DNA from: a virus | IMG/VR virus record: IMGVR_UViG_3300049207_000064 | Coordinates: 1-33,129 of that record | DNA length: 33,129 nt | Direction: 5' to 3' (one strand) | Shown: piece after piece, positions 2,317 to 29,425 of the stretch | Layout of the letters: each line of letters starts with the position of its first letter | Position numbering within the stretch: position 1 is the stretch's first letter | The notes under the pieces: model-generated | What the model saw: only the letters and a program-made list of their open reading frames with translations | Told to the model about the DNA's origin: nothing | Database searches by the model: none | Translations under genes and position numbers: made by a program

Positions 2317-3156
2317 ATGAGCGAGCCGACCAGGCCAATCCTTCGATACCACGGTGGCAAGTGGAAACTGGCGCCCTGGATAGTCGGCCATTTTCCGCCT
2401 CATCGCATCTATGTTGAGTCTTTCGGCGGGGGCGGGTCTGTGCTGATGCGCAAGCCACGGTCGTATGCCGAGGTCTACAACGACAAGTGGCCGGTTGTGG
2501 TGGATGTCTTTCGATGCGTTCGCAATCCGGATACCGCCGCAGAACTTGAACGGCAGCTAAGGCTCACGCCATTTGCGCGCGATGAATTCTTTTCCGCTTA
2601 CATCGTTGAAGGCGATGACCTGGTCGAGCGTGCGCGCAAGTCAATCATTCGTAGCTTCATGGGTTTCGGATCAGCCTCAACGAACGGCGAACACCTGACC
2701 GGGTTTCGCGGCAATTCAAACCGCTCAGGTACCACGCCGGCGCACGACTGGGTTAACTGGCCTGACTGCATCAAGGCATTCACCGAACGATTGCAGGGAG
2801 TTGTGATCGAGAACCTGGACTTTGCCGAGCTGATATCTCGGCACGACTCAACCGATACCCTGATCTACGCAGATCCGCCGTACACGCATGACACGCGAAA
2901 CATGGCGCGCGGAAACTCAGCCTACGCTCACGACTTCACCACAGAAGACCACGAGAGGCTCGCTGCCGTGCTGCATGAGTCACCCGGCATGGTGATCGTC
3001 AGCGGATATCCCAACCCGCTGTATGACCGCCTATTCGCCGGATGGGAGGTTCGCGAGTGTCGTGCATTTGCTGATGGCGCTCAACCAAGGCGCGAGATGT
3101 TATGGCTCAACGGCGCTGCTGCTCGTGCGCAATCACAACAGCGGATGTTCGCATGA
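2317..3156 (+). CDS. D12-class DNA adenine N6-methyltransferase
   Basis: This is a 279-residue enzyme that would transfer a methyl group from S-adenosylmethionine to adenine N6 in DNA. The motifs are in the Dam/D12 order: YHGGKWKLAP near residue 11, the SAM-binding ESFGGGGSVL around residues 34-43, YNDKW at 55-59 and the catalytic ADPPYTHD with DPPY at 186-189. The start at 2317 has a very strong ribosome site. It lies in the early region between the CII-like gene and a HTH gene, with an ATGA overlap downstream. It may protect phage DNA from host restriction or modulate replication and gene expression. No cognate restriction enzyme is next to it, so it is probably an orphan methylase. The target sequence cannot be read from the protein. 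Confidence 0.92.
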   Translation: MSEPTRPILRYHGGKWKLAPWIVGHFPPHRIYVESFGGGGSVLMRKPRSYAEVYNDKWPVVVDVFRCVRNPDTAAELERQLRLTPFARDEFFSAYIVEGDDLVERARKSIIRSFMGFGSASTNGEHLTGFRGNSNRSGTTPAHDWVNWPDCIKAFTERLQGVVIENLDFAELISRHDSTDTLIYADPPYTHDTRNMARGNSAYAHDFTTEDHERLAAVLHESPGMVIVSGYPNPLYDRLFAGWEVRECRAFADGAQPRREMLWLNGAAARAQSQQRMFA

Positions 3157-20291: not shown

Positions 20292-23234
20292 ATGCCGCTC
20301 GTCCCATACGAAGCTTCCATCACTGCGCGCAAGCAGACATTGCCTGCGCAGCCGCAGCCGTTAGATCTGCAGCGCCAGGCTGACGAGGCGGCTGGCGATA
20401 AGAATTCGTTCATCGACTTGGCGGCATCCGCACTGCGCCAGAACAATGTGGTGTCTGGTATCCCGCGCCTCGCCGAAGGGTTCGATGATGTCTACGACCC
20501 CAATTACGACCCACTCACCGAGACCAACCTTGCGGGTTATGAGCCGTACGCGGAGCGCTTTATCAACAGCGGAAGCGTTCAGGAGAGCCAGCGCATCAAG
20601 GGGCGCATCCACGAGGAGCTCTCCGACCGCGAGGTGATTCGCCAAGCCGGAGCTGCTGGTATCGCAACCAGCATCGCATCTGGCGTCATCGATCCGGTGA
20701 CCGTTGCCAGCATGGCCTTGCCTGGTACTCAAGGGCCGCGTGCAATTCGCATCGGCAAGACAATCCTGTCGTCGATCGCGCTGGACTCAGCGCAGGAAGC
20801 GATCCTGCACGGTGAACAGTCGCTGCGCACTCTCGGGGAATCCGCCATCAATGTCGGCGCCGGAGCGTTGCTGACAGGCGCGCTTGGAACACTGGCGACG
20901 AGAGTTCCGAAGGATGAGTTCAACGCCCTCAAGGCGGACCTGAAGCGCGCGAGTGACGCCTCAGCACCACACTTGGGCGAAGTTGAGTCCACTGGCGGCG
21001 CTGCCCGCGTTGGCTTCGGCACCACGATGGAGGATGAGACGATTGCGAAGGGCGGGCAGGCGATTGCCAAGTCCATCGGCGCAATCAACCCCATCGCGCG
21101 TGTCATGACGTCGATGTCGAAGCGCGCCCGCATTCTCATGCAGGAAGTGGCTGATGTTCCGTTCCTGCTGAACAAGCACTTGAAGGGCGTGGCGACGCCA
21201 CGGTCAGCCGAAGGCGAGATCCTGGGTGAGCAGGGCGTGCGCTACCGGCTCATCAAGGAGACCGACGCAGCTTACGCTGCGCACAAAGCGGCTGGCGGGG
21301 CATTGAAACGCGGTGAGTTTGGAGAGGCTGTGGCCTCAGCACTGCGTCGCGGTGATGAGAGCGCGGTGCCAGAGATTGCACAGGTTGCGAAGTCGTACCG
21401 CAAATACTTCGATGATTCGTTGAAGCAGTTGAAGGCTGCTGGCCTGGTGGGCGAGGAGTCGGCGGTCAAGTTCGCAAAGAGCTATCTGCCGCGCCTCTAC
21501 GATCATTCGAAGATCCGGGTGAGTCGTGTCGAGTTGGAAGATGCGCTCAGGGACTGGTTCAGCCGTTCCGGCGAGGTAGACAAGGCCGAGGTGAATACTG
21601 CGGTCGCAGACGTCATCGACACCATCAACGGCAGTCTCCGAGATCACGCGCAGATCGAGCCCGGTTTCGTCGGCAAGGCCGGCAACCTCAAAGAGCGCAC
21701 GCTCAACGTCCCCGATGAAGTGCTCGAGCCGTGGCTCGTGAACGACGTCGAGAAGATCATGGAGAGCTACATCCGCTCCGTGACACCGCAGATCGTGATC
21801 AAGCGCAAGTTCGGCGATCTCGATATGCGCCAGCAGATGCAGGACGTACGCGACGAATATGTCGCCTTACGAGAGCGAGCCAAATCCAGCGAAGCCAAGG
21901 ACGCGATCACCAAAGAGATGGAGGCGACGCTTCGTGATGTACAGGCGGTACGCGACATCCTGCTGGGGAAGTTCGCAAAGCCCGCAGACCCCGATTCTCT
22001 GCTGGTCAAGACCGGTCGCGTGTTTCGCGCCTGGAACTACGTACGGCTCTTGGGCGGTCAGGTGCTGTCATCGCTACCGGATGCCGGCCGTATCGTGGCC
22101 AAGCATGGCTTGGTCAAGACAGGCGCCAAGATCGCCCGCCTGGTTACCGACTCGAACCTGCGCAATCTCACCAAGGCCGATGCACACCGCGTAGGCACCG
22201 CGCTCGACTACGTCCTAAATACGCGCGCAGACACGTTGGGTGAAGTCGGCGATGAACTGGCGTCGTCCAAGTTCGACCGCATCATGCGCCGCGAGTCCAA
22301 TCGGTTCAGCCGATTAACCGGCATGGCGTCGTGGAACAGTGCGTTGAAGACTCTTGCCGTAGGGCTCGAGCAGGATGCCATCGTGAGGGCGGCCAAGGGC
22401 GGAGCACTGACGAAGTTTCAGCGCGGGCAGTTGGCATCCCTTGGTATTGGCGAGCGGATGCTGAGTCGTATCGCCAAGCAGATCGACAGCCACGCCGAGG
22501 ACGCAGATGGTCTGTTCCGATCGAATGCCGAGAAGTGGACGGATCGCGAGGCGGCCACTGAGTTTGAAGGCGCGCTGCTGAAATCCGCAGATACGCTGGT
22601 CATGAACAAAGGCGCGGGCGACGTGCCTCTTTTCATGAACCGCGAGATCGGAAAGACGCTGTTGCAGTTCAAGAGTTTCGGCATGGCGTCCGTCAACCGG
22701 ATGCTGATCCCGATGGCGCAGGGGCTGTCACACGGCGATCTCGCCACTATGAACGGCGCCTGGATGATGCTGGCGCTGGGGGCGATGGCGAACGCCGCGC
22801 GTGATGTGGCCTCTGGTTACAAGCCAACCACAGATCCAGCCCGTATCGCCATCGAGGCATTCGACCGCGCCGGCTTCTCCGCCTATCTATCGGAACCGTT
22901 TGACATCGTCAGCGGCACATTTGGCGGCCCGAGGTTCGGACGATTCACATCGTCGGCCATCACGGAAACTGCGGCTGGCCCCACGTTCGGCACAGCCGAG
23001 GATATCCGCAGCACGCTGCAGGGGATGTTCACCGATAGTGGGAAGTTAGAGCCGGAGGTTAAGGCGTCCGATGTTTACCGATTCCGAAAGCTCATGCCGT
23101 ACCAGAATCTTTTTTATCTTCGCCGGCTGATCAACGCGCTGGAAGGCGAATTCAGTGAGGGAGTCGGCGCATCCGGCGCCGGAGTCAAGTCACTACCGGA
23201 GCGCGTCACCGAAACGAAGGAATTGCACCGATGA
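20292..23234 (+). CDS. Largest internal virion (ejection) protein, gp16-like position
   Basis: This is about 980 residues from ATG 20292. The first 120 residues contain SALRQNNVVSGIPRLAEGFD and YDPNYDPLTETNLAGYEPYA. Two hydrophobic stretches follow (around residues 125-145, with AAGIATSIASGVIDPVTVAS, and around 190-205), then a long helical body. No lysozyme or transglycosylase domain is recognised, unlike T7 gp16. It probably forms the ejection channel and crosses the inner membrane. The frame is open upstream to 20061, but that part lies in the previous gene. Confidence 0.7.
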   Translation: MPLVPYEASITARKQTLPAQPQPLDLQRQADEAAGDKNSFIDLAASALRQNNVVSGIPRLAEGFDDVYDPNYDPLTETNLAGYEPYAERFINSGSVQESQRIKGRIHEELSDREVIRQAGAAGIATSIASGVIDPVTVASMALPGTQGPRAIRIGKTILSSIALDSAQEAILHGEQSLRTLGESAINVGAGALLTGALGTLATRVPKDEFNALKADLKRASDASAPHLGEVESTGGAARVGFGTTMEDETIAKGGQAIAKSIGAINPIARVMTSMSKRARILMQEVADVPFLLNKHLKGVATPRSAEGEILGEQGVRYRLIKETDAAYAAHKAAGGALKRGEFGEAVASALRRGDESAVPEIAQVAKSYRKYFDDSLKQLKAAGLVGEESAVKFAKSYLPRLYDHSKIRVSRVELEDALRDWFSRSGEVDKAEVNTAVADVIDTINGSLRDHAQIEPGFVGKAGNLKERTLNVPDEVLEPWLVNDVEKIMESYIRSVTPQIVIKRKFGDLDMRQQMQDVRDEYVALRERAKSSEAKDAITKEMEATLRDVQAVRDILLGKFAKPADPDSLLVKTGRVFRAWNYVRLLGGQVLSSLPDAGRIVAKHGLVKTGAKIARLVTDSNLRNLTKADAHRVGTALDYVLNTRADTLGEVGDELASSKFDRIMRRESNRFSRLTGMASWNSALKTLAVGLEQDAIVRAAKGGALTKFQRGQLASLGIGERMLSRIAKQIDSHAEDADGLFRSNAEKWTDREAATEFEGALLKSADTLVMNKGAGDVPLFMNREIGKTLLQFKSFGMASVNRMLIPMAQGLSHGDLATMNGAWMMLALGAMANAARDVASGYKPTTDPARIAIEAFDRAGFSAYLSEPFDIVSGTFGGPRFGRFTSSAITETAAGPTFGTAEDIRSTLQGMFTDSGKLEPEVKASDVYRFRKLMPYQNLFYLRRLINALEGEFSEGVGASGAGVKSLPERVTETKELHR

Positions 23235-23256: not shown

Positions 23257-25308
23257 ATGCCATCCGTAGATGATGTTCAAGACATAAGCCCGCTGCAGCA
23301 GTACAACGCCGCACCAGCGCAGACGGTGTTCGCGTATCCGTTCCCGATCTTCGAGGACGACAACCTCGTGGTCTACAAGGACGACACGTTACTGGTGCTC
23401 GCTACGGACTACACGGTTGCTGGCGAAGGCGACGACACAGGCGGCGACATCACCCTCATTGTTCCGTGCGTGGGCGGCGAGGTAATCACGATCTACCGCG
23501 ACGTGCCGATGGAGCGCCTGACCGACTTTCAGCAGAACGGACCACGCCGCTCAGCTGATATGAACGATGAGCTAGACCGCATGACGATGTACATGCAGCA
23601 GCTCAAGCGCGATCTAGGGCGAAAGATCGGGCTGTCCCTGCGCAATCCGCAGGCTAGCAGTGAACTAACGCTAGACCCGATCTCAAGCTGGCTAGAACGG
23701 TATTTCTTTATCAATGCAAGCGGCGAGCTTGAGCCTGCAGCCAATATTGGTTCGACCGCGCTGACGCAGTCGGTCATCGGCGGTCTGCTCTATCCGCAAA
23801 CCGCTGCCGAATTATCAGCCGGCGTCACCCCGGTCAACTATGCGTATGCGCCTGGCGAAGTAGACAGATACGGCACGAACGCCATCCCCGGCACGACCGA
23901 CATGACTGCCGCATTCAACGCAGCATTCAAGGTGGCTAAAACCTCAGGTACCGATGTCGTTTATGGACGGTCATGGCCTTATCTGGTGACATCCGCAATC
24001 GATGTCACCGTTGACACGGGCGCCGACAATTTCGGATTCAACGTGCGCAACATCGGTCAAGCGCACGCCGTCACCGCCAATGCGCCTGGCTACCCGAGCA
24101 TCCTCGCCGATCACGCGGGCCACGTCTTCGATTGTGCCGGCGCTCCTGCAATCAACTGGTATGACGTGTCTGTTGGAGAAAATTCAGGGGCAGCAGCGAA
24201 GTCCGCCTGCTGGTTCTTAGCGCGGCATTCTGGCGGATCATCGCAGATTCATCGCTTCATCAATTGCCGCGTCAACGGGACGTTTGATGATGCGGTTGTA
24301 TATAACTACGGCTCCGAGGAAGAGGAATACCACGGCTGCGTCTTCGTCAACCAGTCAACGGCCGCTGGCTCGAAGATCTTCTGGTTAACGGCCAACAACA
24401 TCCTGGGGCTGAGTTCGACCTTCATCACGATTGCGACTGGCACGCAATCAACAATCAACCACAAGATCTTCGGCGGCTCGTTCTACAGCTTCAACACCGA
24501 CAATACCTCCGATGTCATCGGCGTAGACAACTGCAGAAACATCTACGTGTACGGCGCCTTTTTCGTGTGCAAGGGCCGCTCGTACCTGCATATCGATCCG
24601 ACCAATGGATCGAGCGACCGTATCGTCTTTCACGGGCTAGAAGGAGAGAACGCTAGCCCATTGAACCTCTACGGCATCCACATGGGCGCGGGCGCCGTCA
24701 ATAACGCCCAGATCGTAATTCGAGATTCTTACATCCCTTCGCAGACGCGCGCGGTATACGCAGGGGCTGGCGTGACTGTGTCTAGCTCGACCTTCGACAA
24801 CATTTCGGAGCTTGCCTCGAAGGGCATAGAGATCGTGACGAAGCTGCAACAGAGCTATGTCAATCAGGTTTCTGTCGTCGTCATCGGTGAGTCGGAACTA
24901 AACACGCTGATCGGCGACACTTCAGGCTTCACGATCACGACGCGCGACGATGACAACTGGCACGAGACAGGCGCGACCAATACCACTTGGACACCAGGCA
25001 CAGCCGCCATCACCCACGGCGGCACGTTGACGGTCGGTAACCTTCGACTATCTCTCGAAGGCAAGAAGATGTTCTTCAGCTTGAGCCTTGTCGATACGGT
25101 GTCTATGTCTTGGGCTGCCCTTGCCGCGATCACGGGGCTGCCGTTCAGCACTGCGATTGTATCAGCGGACGTGACGGTCGTGAACTACAACACCGGCGCC
25201 TCGTTGGGCGTCGGCTTCGTCGAAGGCACTTCGATCAAGCTACCGGTGAACGCTGGCGTCGGAGCAGGCGTCTTCGTGATCATCAGCGGGTCTGCGTATG
25301 TGGCGTAA
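23257..25308 (+). CDS. Tail fibre/spike with T7-fibre N-terminus and beta-helix
   Basis: This is 683 residues. ATG 23257 has GGAGAG upstream. Residues 1-140 match the T7-type fibre anchoring domain: QYNAAPAQTVFAYPFPIFED, YRDVPMERLTDFQQNGPRRS and MNDELDRMTMYMQQLKRDLG. Residues about 210-560 have the repeated short strands of a right-handed beta-helix (pectate-lyase-like), and the last 110 form a beta-sandwich-like end (AITHGGTLTVGNLRLSLEGK). It attaches to the tail and recognises surface glycan; enzymatic cleavage is possible but no active site was identified. Its end overlaps by 26 bases with the minus-strand acyltransferase. Confidence 0.85.
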   Translation: MPSVDDVQDISPLQQYNAAPAQTVFAYPFPIFEDDNLVVYKDDTLLVLATDYTVAGEGDDTGGDITLIVPCVGGEVITIYRDVPMERLTDFQQNGPRRSADMNDELDRMTMYMQQLKRDLGRKIGLSLRNPQASSELTLDPISSWLERYFFINASGELEPAANIGSTALTQSVIGGLLYPQTAAELSAGVTPVNYAYAPGEVDRYGTNAIPGTTDMTAAFNAAFKVAKTSGTDVVYGRSWPYLVTSAIDVTVDTGADNFGFNVRNIGQAHAVTANAPGYPSILADHAGHVFDCAGAPAINWYDVSVGENSGAAAKSACWFLARHSGGSSQIHRFINCRVNGTFDDAVVYNYGSEEEEYHGCVFVNQSTAAGSKIFWLTANNILGLSSTFITIATGTQSTINHKIFGGSFYSFNTDNTSDVIGVDNCRNIYVYGAFFVCKGRSYLHIDPTNGSSDRIVFHGLEGENASPLNLYGIHMGAGAVNNAQIVIRDSYIPSQTRAVYAGAGVTVSSSTFDNISELASKGIEIVTKLQQSYVNQVSVVVIGESELNTLIGDTSGFTITTRDDDNWHETGATNTTWTPGTAAITHGGTLTVGNLRLSLEGKKMFFSLSLVDTVSMSWAALAAITGLPFSTAIVSADVTVVNYNTGASLGVGFVEGTSIKLPVNAGVGAGVFVIISGSAYVA

Positions 25309-26440
25309 CCACTCCACGCAAACGCTGTACCCACTGCCGCTGCATGAACGGCTTCTCAAAGGCGAGGAACAGCAGCGATGCGACGACAAGCAGCGCGGGC
25401 ATGAGGATTGCCCAAGCAATGGCGTAGTTCACCCACAGCGCTCTAGTGGGTTGGAAGCGCATCGCGTGCGGTCCGAGAGCAGAGATCACGTACTCGTGGT
25501 AGAGGTAGGTCGTGTAGCACATGCCGCCGACAACCGCGATCCATTGGTTCGCGAGGATGGCGTGCGTGATGCGGCCATAGAAGGCCGCACAGGTGAGGCC
25601 GAGCAACCCCACGCAGGCGAGCGCGCACCAGATGGCGTCGAACATGCCTCCACCCGGACTCCACCACACCCGCGTGATGCATCCGGTGATGGCGTAGAGC
25701 AGCGCGACGCTACCGAGCGCGACCCAGTCCATGCGGTAGGTTTTCTCTGCCGTGCCACGGCTGACGTAGATGTCGGCGATGAGAAAACCCACGAGGAAGC
25801 AGTGTGCGAAGGCGAGCACGGAGAGGCGCCACTCGTTGATGAACGGCTGCAGGGCGCAGAAGCCCACGATGATGGCTATCAAGATTTCTCGCCGCTGCTT
25901 CAAAGCGAAGACTCGCGCGATGAGCGGCGCCAGCAGGTAGAACTGAATCTCGATCTCGAGCGACCAAGCGACCTCGGCAATCGTGCTTTTCTCGCCATAC
26001 ACCAAATTGTGGCTGTAGGTCAGCGTCGAGATGTAGTGAGGGAGAAACTCGGCGAAGTCCCCGTGCCAGGCGCGCAGCACGAAGATCAGCGTGACGAAGA
26101 TGAAGTACGGCGGCTCGAGCCGGGTGAGCCTGCGCAGGTAGTAGCTCGGCAGATTCACGCCTCGTTCGCCCGCCAGGTAATGAGCGGCGAACGGAAGCGA
26201 GATGATGAGTCCGCTGATCGTGAAGAACAGGATCACGCCGAACCAGCCTCGATCCAGTGTGTCGGCAAACGCGCCTTCTCGCGCGAGGCCCGCCGGGGAC
26301 TTCGCGATCACATAGCCGAGCAGGTGATACATCACGACCGATGCGATGGCGATGAACCTCAGGCCATCGATCTCCCTGACTACCCGGCCACTCGTCGTAA
26401 CGCGCGTCAGGGTTTCTATCAATCTGTCGGCTATTCGCAT
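25283..26440 (-). CDS. Acyltransferase-3 family membrane protein, likely O-antigen acetylase
   Basis: This is 385 residues from ATG 26440; the frame is open to 26542, but the extra part overlaps the next gene. The family motifs are present: REIDGLRFIAIASVVMYHL with the conserved His, GVILFFTISGLIISLPF, YYLRRLTRLEPPYF and AEVAWSLEIEIQFYLLAPLI. About ten hydrophobic helices are visible. Such enzymes transfer acetyl groups across the inner membrane onto surface sugars. It is the only minus-strand gene inside the late region and lies next to the tail fibre, as the O-acetyltransferase does in phage Sf6. This suggests lysogenic conversion that blocks superinfection. No clear promoter was seen. Confidence 0.9.
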   Translation of the reverse strand: MRIADRLIETLTRVTTSGRVVREIDGLRFIAIASVVMYHLLGYVIAKSPAGLAREGAFADTLDRGWFGVILFFTISGLIISLPFAAHYLAGERGVNLPSYYLRRLTRLEPPYFIFVTLIFVLRAWHGDFAEFLPHYISTLTYSHNLVYGEKSTIAEVAWSLEIEIQFYLLAPLIARVFALKQRREILIAIIVGFCALQPFINEWRLSVLAFAHCFLVGFLIADIYVSRGTAEKTYRMDWVALGSVALLYAITGCITRVWWSPGGGMFDAIWCALACVGLLGLTCAAFYGRITHAILANQWIAVVGGMCYTTYLYHEYVISALGPHAMRFQPTRALWVNYAIAWAILMPALLVVASLLFLAFEKPFMQRQWVQRLRGVVTPHTQTR

Positions 26441-26467: not shown

Positions 26468-26815
26468 TTGGACATTGACGACCAGAACGAGGAATTGCGC
26501 TCCAAGGGCCGAAAGAGCGGGGGTGGCTCCGTTGAAATGCACGATGCCCGCTTTTCATCGCTCATCAAGTGGGTATGGGCAGCCCTGGGTGGATTGGCTG
26601 TACTCATCGGACTTGGCGTCTACAGCAAGCTTTCTTCGATTAACGACACCCTGATTGCCGCTGTCTCGGACATCAAGAACCAGGGCGCGCAGGTTGCGGA
26701 ACTGAAGATTGAAGTGCGCGACCTTCGTGGTGCTCAAGGAGCCATGCAGCGTCAAGTCGATAGCCTGGAAGGAAAGACGCTCCGTGGCATCGAGGAGATG
26801 AAGCGTGAACGATGA
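26468..26815 (+). CDS. Single-pass membrane protein with coiled coil
   Basis: This is 115 residues from a TTG at 26468 (AAAGGA nine bases upstream); ATG 26537 is a shorter alternative. A charged N-terminus is followed by a transmembrane helix (WVWAALGGLAVLIGLGVYSK) and a coiled coil (VAELKIEVRDLRGAQGAMQR). It starts only 28 bases from the divergent acyltransferase and opens the lysis region. A holin or antiholin-like role is possible but unproven. Confidence 0.6.
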   Translation: MDIDDQNEELRSKGRKSGGGSVEMHDARFSSLIKWVWAALGGLAVLIGLGVYSKLSSINDTLIAAVSDIKNQGAQVAELKIEVRDLRGAQGAMQRQVDSLEGKTLRGIEEMKRER

Positions 26816-27122
26816 CTATCCGGCCTTCGTTCATGGAGAACAGGGCGAACGCTCCGCTCAGGTCATCACCGTGGATTACGGCAAGCACATCGCTTCCCTT
26901 GGGTTTTCCATCGCTGCTTTTGCTGTCTCGCTTGCCTGTGCATTGTGGCTGATGGGTCGCACCGTAGCCGCAGAACTTCGGGCAAGTGCCATTGAATCAC
27001 AGGCATCGAACCAGCTAGCCATGGAAAAGCGCCTCAACACTCAGGCCATCGACGAACTGAAGTTAGAGATGCGCGCGGCTTTCAAGAATCGCGATCTCAG
27101 TGATACCCACGAATTGAAGTAG
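26805..27122 (+). CDS. Membrane protein with helical C-terminus
   Basis: This is 105 residues from GTG 26805, with CGAGGAG upstream, overlapping the previous gene by 11 bases. One clear transmembrane helix lies near residues 31-51 (GFSIAAFAVSLACALWLMGR), followed by an amphipathic helical tail. It resembles the previous gene in layout, so the two may work as a pair in the lysis region. Confidence 0.6.
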   Translation: MNDDYPAFVHGEQGERSAQVITVDYGKHIASLGFSIAAFAVSLACALWLMGRTVAAELRASAIESQASNQLAMEKRLNTQAIDELKLEMRAAFKNRDLSDTHELK

Positions 27123-27130
27123 GAGTCCAT

Positions 27131-27280
27131 ATGCCTAGCGACCAAGATGTAATCATAATTTCCAACTACCGAACGCGCGTGAACTACTACGGCTGGTTCA
27201 CTGTACGCGCTTGGGTATTCCTTGCTGCACCAGTTGCTGCGCTCATTGTCGGTCTCATCGTTGGGGCGATAGCGGGCTAA
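27131..27280 (+). CDS. 49-residue membrane protein, small-holin-like
   Basis: The frame runs from ATG 27131 (AGGAG at 27121-27125) to TAA 27280, which overlaps the next ATG. The peptide has a polar N-terminus (MPSDQDVIIISNYRTRVNYY) and a hydrophobic C-terminal helix (FLAAPVAALIVGLIVGAIAG). One membrane span fits a small accessory membrane protein. Strong ribosome site and coupling support it. Confidence 0.6.
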   Translation: MPSDQDVIIISNYRTRVNYYGWFTVRAWVFLAAPVAALIVGLIVGAIAG

Positions 27281-27525
27281 TGGAAATCGCGATTGGCATA
27301 GGCGCGACCGTCATTCTCGGCTTGCTCGCCGTCGTGTGGAATCTCTTGAACGAAAAGATCAAGTCTCACAAGGAGCACTGCGACGATGAGATCAAGCAGC
27401 TGTGGGCGCAGATCGGGCGCGATAGCCACTCTGGTATGAGGGCTGAAGTGCACAAGATCCCCAGCATTCAAACCACGTTGCTCATGCACGGCGATTTGAT
27501 CAGGCGCGCGAGGGATGAGCGGTGA
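27280..27525 (+). CDS. Membrane-anchored small lysis-region protein
   Basis: This is 81 residues from ATG 27280 (TAATG overlap). The N-terminal helix MEIAIGIGATVILGLLAVVW is a membrane span, followed by a charged helical region (NLLNEKIKSHKEHCDDEIKQ) and a soluble end. One N-terminal span plus coil is common in phage lysis cassettes. It overlaps the DUF5675 gene by a GTGA junction. Confidence 0.6.
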   Translation: MEIAIGIGATVILGLLAVVWNLLNEKIKSHKEHCDDEIKQLWAQIGRDSHSGMRAEVHKIPSIQTTLLMHGDLIRRARDER

Positions 27526-27980
27526 AACTCATCCTGCGCCGCGAGCCTCCTCATCCTGACTGCACGCTGGGACTGCTCGAGATTGGCAGCCTGACGCTGT
27601 GCACGATTGAACGGCCCTGGATTTTCAGTCCTACCTGCAAGGGCGGGTTGAAGGGCAAGTCCTGCGTACCTCCAGGCACATACCAGCTCGTCAAACACGA
27701 CAGCAAGAAGCACGGCAAGACGTGGGCGCTGGTGAATCACGACTTGGACGTTGTTCATTACGAAGGCGATGACCACGATCCGGATGAGGACAGAGCTACC
27801 TGTCTCATTCACATCGGGAATTACGTGCATCAAGTTGAAGGCTGCATAGCTGTCGGCCTCACTCATGCACTGACCAACGGTGAGCACTGGGTGACTTCAT
27901 CCACTCGTGCCATGCAACGTCTGCAAGCCGTTCTCCCTTGGACTAACGAACATCAGCTTGAGATCACGGAGGCCGCATGA
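27522..27980 (+). CDS. DUF5675 family protein, possible cell-wall enzyme
   Basis: This is 152 residues from GTG 27522. The pattern LGLLEIGSLTLCTIERPW, then CVPPGTYQLVKHDSKKHG and the HIGNYVHQVEGCIAVG core (H97, C108), identifies DUF5675-like proteins common in phage lysis regions. The H...EGC core recalls the H...(S/T)HGC of YkuD L,D-transpeptidases, but the spacing is shorter and the order is not proof. No signal peptide is seen. It is the only enzyme-like protein among the holin-like genes, so it could be the murein-degrading protein. That is an inference. Confidence 0.65.
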   Translation: MKLILRREPPHPDCTLGLLEIGSLTLCTIERPWIFSPTCKGGLKGKSCVPPGTYQLVKHDSKKHGKTWALVNHDLDVVHYEGDDHDPDEDRATCLIHIGNYVHQVEGCIAVGLTHALTNGEHWVTSSTRAMQRLQAVLPWTNEHQLEITEAA

Positions 27981-28177
27981 AATGGCTGTGGAAGAACCGC
28001 ACTAAGGTCGTGGGCTATCTAGGTGCTGGCCTCGCCCAACTCGGCACCAGCGGGCTTATAGAAAGTCCCAAAGCCATAGCTTGGCTCGCCTTCGCCGCAT
28101 CGATGTGCACGCTCGCCATCGGCCACTTCAACGACTACCAAACAAAACGCGCCAAGGCGCAGGAGACACCGCAATGA
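27977..28177 (+). CDS. Holin-like two-helix membrane protein
   Basis: This is 66 residues, ATG 27977 overlapping the previous stop. A basic start (MKWLWKNRTKVVGYLGAGLA) leads into two hydrophobic helices (KVVGYLGAGLAQLGTSGLI and AIAWLAFAASMCTLAIGHF) and a polar basic end. This is a common phage holin layout. The next gene begins at an ATGA overlap. Confidence 0.65.
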   Translation: MKWLWKNRTKVVGYLGAGLAQLGTSGLIESPKAIAWLAFAASMCTLAIGHFNDYQTKRAKAQETPQ

Positions 28178-28716
28178 ACCCATTCTCTCGCCGCATCCAT
28201 CCAGCTGCTGTGCTGGCAGTCGCACTCGGACTGCTATGTATCACGGGCATCGTGAACGCGCAGTCCACCACTCGCGTGACCAACTGTAACGCAGCGACTC
28301 CAACCAACGCCCTGTGTCTGGAATGGACCGCCCCCGCCACCATGACGGACGGAACCCCCACGGTCCTGCCGCTCAACTATCGGGTGCAGCAGCGCGTGGG
28401 AACGACAGGCACTTTCACGACCATTGCCAGCAATCTCACCGTGCTCAAGCTGTACGTGGAGAACCTGGCGCCGGGTGAATATTTCTACAGAGTTTTCGCC
28501 AATTGCACGGGCTGTACGGCTGAAAGCGCGGCATCGAATACGGCCTCGAGATCAGCTACGACTCCGCCTGTGGTGCCCGGTGCGCCGGTATTGATCATCG
28601 CTGCCACGATCCGTGCAGGACAGCCACCGACGTACCGAGTGGTTTACACAGTGCGTCCAAGGACTGGAGAGCTTGTGTTTGTCGCGCCTGAGGCGATGCG
28701 CAGTGCATTCAGGTAA
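28174..28716 (+). CDS. Secreted protein with fibronectin type III-like domain
   Basis: This is 180 residues, ATG 28174 in an ATGA overlap. A signal peptide is clear: basic start, hydrophobic VLAVALGLLCITGIVNAQ and a likely cut after NA-Q. The mature part has LCLEWTAPATM, PLNYRVQQRVG and the Tyr-rich LAPGEYFYRVFANCTG pattern of a fibronectin type III fold, with two Cys residues that may form a bridge. The C-terminus is a second beta-like segment. A secreted FN3 protein in a lysis region is unusual; it may bind the envelope or act as a lysogenic conversion factor. Confidence 0.65.
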   Translation: MNPFSRRIHPAAVLAVALGLLCITGIVNAQSTTRVTNCNAATPTNALCLEWTAPATMTDGTPTVLPLNYRVQQRVGTTGTFTTIASNLTVLKLYVENLAPGEYFYRVFANCTGCTAESAASNTASRSATTPPVVPGAPVLIIAATIRAGQPPTYRVVYTVRPRTGELVFVAPEAMRSAFR

Positions 28717-28873
28717 AGACCGCTACGGCGTCCGTCCCCTGAACCATCACGAGCTCGCCCTATGGGAGTCTCGTATGGCTGAACTGAAGGACAAAAAGCG
28801 TCCCGTGGTAAAGCAGGTATGGCATCCCATGACATACGCACAGGTGTGTGCGTTGAGGTGGCCTAAGTGTTAG
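28703..28873 (+). CDS. Short hypothetical protein
   Basis: This is 56 residues from a GTG at 28703 with GAGG nine bases upstream, overlapping the end of the FN3 gene. It begins VHSGKDRYGVRPLNHHELAL and ends with PMTYAQVCALRWPKC. Weak evidence: only length, ribosome site and placement. Its stop lies just beyond the Rz start at 28867. Confidence 0.4.
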   Translation: MHSGKDRYGVRPLNHHELALWESRMAELKDKKRPVVKQVWHPMTYAQVCALRWPKC

Positions 28874-29229
28874 GACAGTGGAAATTGATCGCCGGCCTCG
28901 CTGTCCTAGCCGTGATAGGGGGGCTGATATGGTACGAGGTTGGTGTCCACAAAAAGGCTGCCCGTGTGGATCAAGCTGAGGACCGTGCAGAGGCTGCCGA
29001 GAAGGGCAGGGCTCAAGATATGGCTGAGGTAGTAAGGCGTCTGGATGCCGATGCTATTCAGCGTGGCGAGTTACTGGCGAAGTTCGCGAGCATCGATGAG
29101 CGTTTCAACTCGATCAAGATTCCAGATCCCAAGGTGTTGGTTCAGACGCGGGAGGTTCCCGGTGCGTGTCCTGTGGTTGGCGTTTCTGACGAGTTTGTGC
29201 GCGTGTTCAACGAAGCCTCAGCCCCTTGA
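28867..29229 (+). CDS. Rz: Rz-like inner-membrane spanin
   Basis: This is 120 residues from GTG 28867. One N-terminal membrane helix (LIAGLAVLAVIGGLIWYEVG) is followed by a long charged, coiled periplasmic part (AARVDQAEDRAEAAEKGRAQ and further to residue 85). This is the usual i-spanin layout. Its 3' end contains the start of the Rz1 frame at 29162 in another frame. Together they fuse inner and outer membranes at the last step of lysis. Confidence 0.75.
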   Translation: MLGQWKLIAGLAVLAVIGGLIWYEVGVHKKAARVDQAEDRAEAAEKGRAQDMAEVVRRLDADAIQRGELLAKFASIDERFNSIKIPDPKVLVQTREVPGACPVVGVSDEFVRVFNEASAP

Positions 29230-29425
29230 GATTCCCTCCCCAAAACCATTAGAGGCAATGCAGCCGTGTTCGCTACAGCTATGCACGCTGCGGCCAGAGA
29301 TTGTGAATCTCGAACCTGCTGACCAGTTGGCGATGATCCTGGCTTGTAAAGTTGCCGACGCAGAAACGTACCGTCGATGCCAAGCCAAACAAGATGCGTT
29401 AGTGTCATGGATCAAAGCTCGCTGA
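29162..29425 (+). CDS. Rz1: Rz1-like outer-membrane lipoprotein spanin, overlapping Rz
   Basis: This is 87 residues from GTG 29162, with GGGAGG six bases upstream, inside the end of Rz in a different frame. It has a hydrophobic signal (VRVLWLAFLTSLCACSTK) with a lipobox-like L-C-A-C ending at Cys15, then a Pro-rich start (PQPLEIPSPKPLEAM) typical of Rz1. The Cys-rich middle is unusual. The nested, shifted-frame layout is diagnostic of Rz/Rz1 pairs. Confidence 0.75.
   Translation: MRVLWLAFLTSLCACSTKPQPLEIPSPKPLEAMQPCSLQLCTLRPEIVNLEPADQLAMILACKVADAETYRRCQAKQDALVSWIKAR

Follow-up and report, generated by a model that had tools for sequence, protein, structure and literature searches.

A candidate prophage lysis cassette with a DUF5675 protein as proposed endolysin and remote relative of Tlde1-type LD-transpeptidases

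Gene content of the region between tail spike and integrase

The window, by which we mean the whole stretch of DNA analyzed here (33,129 nucleotides), is the 33-kb viral record IMGVR_UViG_3300049207_000064, a prophage of podovirus type with genes for a terminase, head-tail connector, capsid, internal virion proteins, T7-type tail spike and integrase. The tail spike gene is followed by a minus-strand acyltransferase gene, a series of overlapping small plus-strand genes (Table 1) and the integrase gene. The acyltransferase (25283-26440, PF01757, E=2e-26), situated between the tail spike and the small genes, is likely a lysogenic-conversion gene whose product modifies surface sugars.

Table 1. 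Predicted genes of the candidate lysis region and their positions in the window
Position	Strand	Product	Features
26468..26815	+	Membrane protein, one span and a charged coil	TTG start, alternative ATG at 26537; one hydropathy peak
26805..27122	+	Membrane protein, one span and a charged coil at the C terminus	One span
27131..27280	+	49-aa protein, single span at the C terminus	Hydropathy 2.69; good ribosome-binding site
27280..27525	+	81-aa protein, N-terminal span followed by charged helix	Hydropathy: one clear span
27522..27980	+	DUF5675 protein, 152 aa, proposed endolysin	PF18925, E=1.1e-20
27977..28177	+	66-aa membrane protein, one clear and one weak helix	Hydropathy: clear span 1.65; weaker first helix below cut
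28174..28716	+	Secreted protein, signal-like segment at the N terminus	Hydropathy peak at 11-29; overlaps the 27977..28177 gene by 4 bp
28867..29229	+	Rz-like inner-membrane spanin	N-terminal span; Rz-like spanin PHROG_1152, E=9e-4
29045..29425	+	Rz1-like outer-membrane lipoprotein spanin	Overlaps the Rz-like gene out of frame; phrog_2425 (function unknown), E=5e-7

A preceding sequence-only reading had described a lysis region at 26468-28177, in which five small membrane proteins surround a DUF5675 protein. Open reading frames were indeed found at all of these positions, with all six on the same strand. Their junctions consist of an 11-bp overlap (26468 and 26805 genes), an 8-bp gap, a 1-bp overlap at TAATG (27131 and 27280 genes) and 4-bp GTGA/ATGA overlaps, which link the DUF5675 gene to the 27280 gene upstream and, through ATGA, to the 27977 gene downstream. 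Hydropathy analysis gave one clear span for each of the four proteins encoded before DUF5675, whereas the "two-helix" description of the protein encoded after it held only in part, a second helix being weak. The first protein of the series weakly matched an Rz-like spanin PHROG (E=2.7e-4); the second had no family match above chance, and family searches with the 49-aa protein gave no match. The latter is a candidate holin or antiholin. The product of the 27977 gene, which had a weak match to a holin PHROG (E=0.08), is a candidate holin, and a 76-aa membrane protein occupies the equivalent position in a distant viral contig, L001.

The region had been taken to end at 28177, where the earlier listing stopped, and both a secreted protein and a pair of spanin genes further downstream were missed. 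A Pfam scan of the secreted protein gave no family, but its counterpart in L001 (6698-7288) was 37% identical (tblastn E=2e-6); a secreted protein between the candidate holin and the spanins is thus kept in two divergent cassettes (28174-28716 in the window). The Rz1-like protein contains a lipobox-like FLTSLCAC sequence (judged by eye) followed by a proline-containing stretch. A lipoprotein gene that overlaps an inner-membrane protein gene and follows the cassette (28867-29229/29045-29425) is the arrangement of Rz/Rz1 spanins; unlike known pairs, the window sequences are diverged and their PHROG support is weak. Taken together, the region is a candidate canonical Gram-negative lysis cassette, with candidates for the holin, the endolysin slot and the Rz/Rz1 spanin pair.

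In agreement with the sequence-only reading, which had reported no classical endolysin, a six-frame search of the whole record gave no match to Phage_lysozyme, Amidase_2, M15_3, GH19 or GH108, and no known endolysin emerged when the main ORFs were scanned against Pfam. For a gp16-like internal virion protein (20292-23234), the alignment to the PHROG "internal virion protein with endolysin domain" did not begin until position 207 of the profile; the protein lacks the first ~200 PHROG positions, where the lytic domain would be expected, and had no Pfam transglycosylase match.

Conserved residues, profile comparison and structure models of DUF5675

The window DUF5675 protein scored 74.1 bits against a curated PF18925 cut-off of 26.7, which bears out the original family assignment, and had no signal or transmembrane segment. 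Two residues, H97 and C108, were invariant in 102 non-redundant DUF5675 sequences, including 62/62 that were detected with patterns not covering these positions. R91 and N100 were nearly invariant; R91 was absent from the protein of G196, a relative of the window discussed below. Another Cys, C48, was rejected as the nucleophile, as it is replaced by Ala in phage 1.122.A and by Arg in G196. In CHAP and NlpC/P60 domains the Cys precedes the His; the order in DUF5675 is the opposite, and a relation to these domains was set aside.

The closest similarity was to Tlde1 (PF10908, Tlde1_dom), an LD-transpeptidase effector of the type VI secretion system. The window protein itself scored 14.4 bits (E=0.05), below the Pfam cut-off of 30.1, and is therefore a relative of Tlde1 rather than a member. 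Tlde1_dom was the commonest second Pfam match among DUF5675 members (15/102, compared with 2 for YkuD). When profiles were compared by HHalign, DUF5675 matched Tlde1 domains with a probability of 93% and a score of 47.9 in an alignment spanning 56 columns, whereas the maximum was 18.7 in 60 column shuffles, 10.2 with a reversed profile and 16.2 (mean 11.5, SD 2.1) for 61 unrelated natural families from the same contigs. The match to YkuD (PF03734) was weaker (27.3; shuffle maximum 20.5) and extended over the R, H and GC positions. The Tlde1 alignment pairs a PxGxY strand, R91, H97 and G-C108 in order, with R91, H97 and C108 opposite R115, H121 and the catalytic C131 of Tlde1a. R-X5-H spacing was found in 100 of the 101 DUF5675 sequences having the Arg, as well as in the Tlde1 sequences examined, and the R-X5-H-X10-GC spacing of DUF5675 agrees with that of the Tlde1a residues (PMC9638812). 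In Tlde1a, R115 binds the D-amino-acid carboxylate (PMC9638812).

Differences were also evident. The canonical LD-transpeptidase motif HX14-17(S/T)HGC, which sets YkuD domains apart, was not found in DUF5675; most members have H-X10-(E/Q/L/R/K)GC, with HGC in 4 and SGC in 2, and differ from Tlde1 in a His-to-Cys loop of usually 10 residues and in the residue before GC, mostly E, Q, L or R. The settings differ as well: Tlde1 is a secreted effector and YkuD acts in cross-linking, whereas DUF5675 would be a phage lysis gene. The profile comparisons, judged against shuffled and natural nulls and combined with the conserved spacing, support a remote relationship of DUF5675 to the Tlde1 branch within the LD-transpeptidase superfamily, and with it the initial impression that its H...GC core resembles L,D-transpeptidases.

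AlphaFold2 models of the window protein (pLDDT 94.8) and of the L084 homolog (pLDDT 94.6) were confident. The predicted fold consists mostly of strands, followed by a strand with H97, a loop, C108 with a strand, a helix (127-137) and a final strand. Foldseek searches of the PDB with both models gave no match at E<=0.001 and no LD-transpeptidase, and PDB sequence searches with DUF5675 profiles returned chance matches only. Among viral models, Foldseek matched further members of DUF5675 and one protein to which its depositor gave the name L,D-carboxypeptidase/transpeptidase (TM 0.70); nothing on this annotation was found in the crAss-like phage literature searched. Thus, the relation of DUF5675 to LD-transpeptidases is seen in sequence profiles; a relation in fold was not borne out by comparison with the PDB.

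Exchange with known endolysins and gene neighborhoods

The order of the cassette recurs in L001, whose DUF5675 protein is 67% identical to that of the window. It is preceded by four small ORFs, mostly for membrane-span proteins, and followed by a membrane protein, the related secreted protein and an Rz/Rz1-like pair. Only DUF5675 and the secreted protein are recognizably similar in sequence between the two cassettes, which indicates that it is the arrangement that is conserved.

Relatives of the window were gathered by the portal protein. The closest one found, G195 (38 kb, portal 77% identical), had no DUF5675. Directly after its tail spike come the genes of a membrane-coil protein, of a peptidase of the M15_3 family (E=6e-17; E=2e-41 to a PHROG endolysin) and of a membrane protein of 174 aa. 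In G196 (portal 64%), DUF5675 directly follows the tail spike and precedes a homolog of the 174-aa protein (36%, E=8e-20). By homology, the enzyme has been swapped between these two genomes while the slot and the membrane partner were kept. The family of this partner, phrog_1544, was rejected as a general holin family, and the holin label for the partner is tentative, because a homolog in Pseudomonas phage PB1 lies outside the lysis cassette; in PB1-like phages it adjoins MazG and DNA ligase genes (2474-3079 in PB1, L314).

A similar exchange was seen in another lineage, the Mu-like phages. In Vibrio phage martha 12B12, a late activator is followed by a hypothetical protein, DUF5675, a 91-aa protein, a 196-aa membrane protein, DksA and DUF2730, and the order in Shewanella MuM16-2 is activator, hypothetical protein, GH108 lysozyme, homolog of the 91-aa protein, membrane protein and DksA, the two downstream proteins being 53% (91-aa protein) and 58% (membrane protein) identical between the phages. 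Homologs of this membrane protein also occur near GH108 in Klebsiella phage Kp4866-3 and beside a LydA holin and M15 endopeptidase in Janthinobacterium phage Donnerlittchen. M15 and GH108 endolysins, although unrelated to DUF5675 in fold and chemistry (metallopeptidase and glycosidase), are found in its slot with homologous genes as partners. In Vibrio phage 1.122.A, DUF5675 abuts a Pfam-recognized GTA_holin_3TM protein. Besides DUF5675, this phage (L006, 20891-21307) has an NlpC/P60 gene in the tail region, which is taken by its position as a putative tail component.

The occurrence of known endolysin families (PF00959, PF08291, PF00182 and PF05838) was compared between 51 DUF5675-positive records (44 viral contigs, 5 phage records, G196 and the window) and 26 DUF5675-negative portal relatives. 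They were present above cut-off in none of the former and in 11 of the latter (Fisher p=1.2e-6), in a comparison in which fragments are numerous among the records, controls included, and close kinship is limited to the window, G195 and G196, the controls being otherwise not matched by phylogeny. At E<=0.001 the counts were 0/51 and 14/26 (p=1.1e-8). Amidase_2 was absent from both sets and is uninformative here. Gene neighborhoods pointed in the same direction: by one simple gene caller applied to DUF5675 loci and controls alike, a small membrane ORF adjoined DUF5675 in 58/96 non-redundant loci, compared with 49/343 control genes (14%), i.e., nine-fold odds (p=2e-18), and 4-bp overlaps were frequent. 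Because L001 repeats the gene order and membrane neighbors exceed controls, the grouping of genes at 26468-28177 is not due to chance.

Proposed function and distribution

We consider it probable, at roughly three in four, that the region is a canonical lysis cassette and that DUF5675 is its endolysin, a remote Tlde1-type relative using a cysteine mechanism. The sequence-only reading had raised an endolysin role as a possibility, which the slot swaps with M15 and GH108 endolysins and the mutual exclusion, both computational, now strengthen. As the enzyme has no signal or transmembrane segment, it would be cytoplasmic and would reach the cell wall when the holin lets it through. C108, activated by H97, would be the nucleophile and R91 would grip the D-amino-acid carboxylate; the target in the stem peptide would be the L,D bond that joins meso-DAP3 to D-Ala4. 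Cutting of 4-3 cross-links or trimming of stems could then lead to wall failure, after which the spanins would disrupt the outer membrane. Tlde1a is a carboxypeptidase and exchange enzyme and is not known as a cross-link cutter (PMC9638812), which makes fast lysis by such chemistry less certain, and both cross-link cutting and indirect weakening of the wall are possible for DUF5675.

DUF5675 might instead be an endolysin that works by other chemistry, e.g., as a cysteine amidase or D,D-endopeptidase, its likeness to LD-transpeptidases being convergent or confined to the active-site motif. The two PDB searches that gave no LD-transpeptidase, the noncanonical spacing and the limitation of the HHalign match to 56 columns would fit such an enzyme, but with a Tlde1 score far above all nulls, a PxGxY strand, R, H and GC matched in order, and a structural match (TM 0.70) to the viral protein named L,D-carboxypeptidase/transpeptidase by its depositor, we regard it as unlikely.

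Two further readings would deny DUF5675 the part of endolysin altogether. It is improbable that it serves as an accessory wall-modifying or lysis-timing enzyme while the real endolysin is an unrecognized protein encoded at another place or on genome sequence absent from the record: the record is classed as linear and may be a fragment, the function of DUF5675 is predicted from sequence, and the domain also occurs inside a 1251-aa protein of phage RP31, but where other phages have M15 or GH108 endolysins in the slot, DUF5675 stands in their place and not beside them, none of the 51 records with DUF5675 carries any of five known families, and the cassette is intact, flanked by tail spike, spanins and integrase. 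Least of all do we expect a late gene outside lysis that lies among small membrane genes by accident. Approximately 40% of loci are without an adjacent small membrane ORF according to the simple gene caller, yet the excess of membrane neighbors, the many 4-bp overlaps, the swaps in the slot and the exclusion of known endolysins all speak against such a gene.

The preferred reading, that of DUF5675 as the endolysin, bears on many other phages. DUF5675 was detected in at least 575 viral contigs (in a single scan) and in 96 phage records, where it is mostly annotated as hypothetical, and it is likely a large family of endolysins. The lytic Vibrio phages Virtus (ORF1) and R21Y (ORF73) carry DUF5675 followed by a membrane-helix gene (ORF2 and ORF74, respectively) (PMC9229204, PMC10671443). 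The words "endolysin" and "holin" are absent from the Virtus text (PMC9229204), and the available portion of the R21Y paper assigns no lysin gene (PMC10671443). We found no assignment of DUF5675 to lysis in the open-licence literature searched; the only two papers there that mention the family (PMC9229204, PMC10671443) do not call it a lysin. The accessible sections of the PhaLP paper list 10 YkuD-type phage lytic proteins under cd16913/PF03734/PF10908 (PMC8310338). These are likewise phage lytic proteins of the LD-transpeptidase superfamily, which is thus not new among phage lysins, and to call DUF5675 a "new kind" of endolysin, as had been suggested, was too strong; they differ in that PF18925 is absent from the entries given there (PMC8310338).

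If DUF5675 is an endolysin, it would explain lysis by phages that have no annotated lysin and would bring a cysteine L,D-peptidase into a class made up mainly of glycosidases, amidases and metallopeptidases. It would also suggest that both bacterial weaponry and phage exit have recruited Tlde1-like chemistry. We lean slightly towards the broader view that DUF5675 is a widespread endolysin class, in which small cysteine L,D-peptidases lyse Gram-negative hosts by the meso-DAP3/D-Ala4 cut with LD-transpeptidase chemistry, in tailed phages and even in a 5-kb microvirus. The last case is a 5-kb circular Microviridae genome (MW202581, L007) that encodes DUF5675 at 7-384; microviruses are not expected to carry endolysins. 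In Ralstonia phage RP31, the DUF5675 domain lies within the 1251-aa protein (BFVD A0A1L7N1E2), which is possibly a virion-associated lysin.
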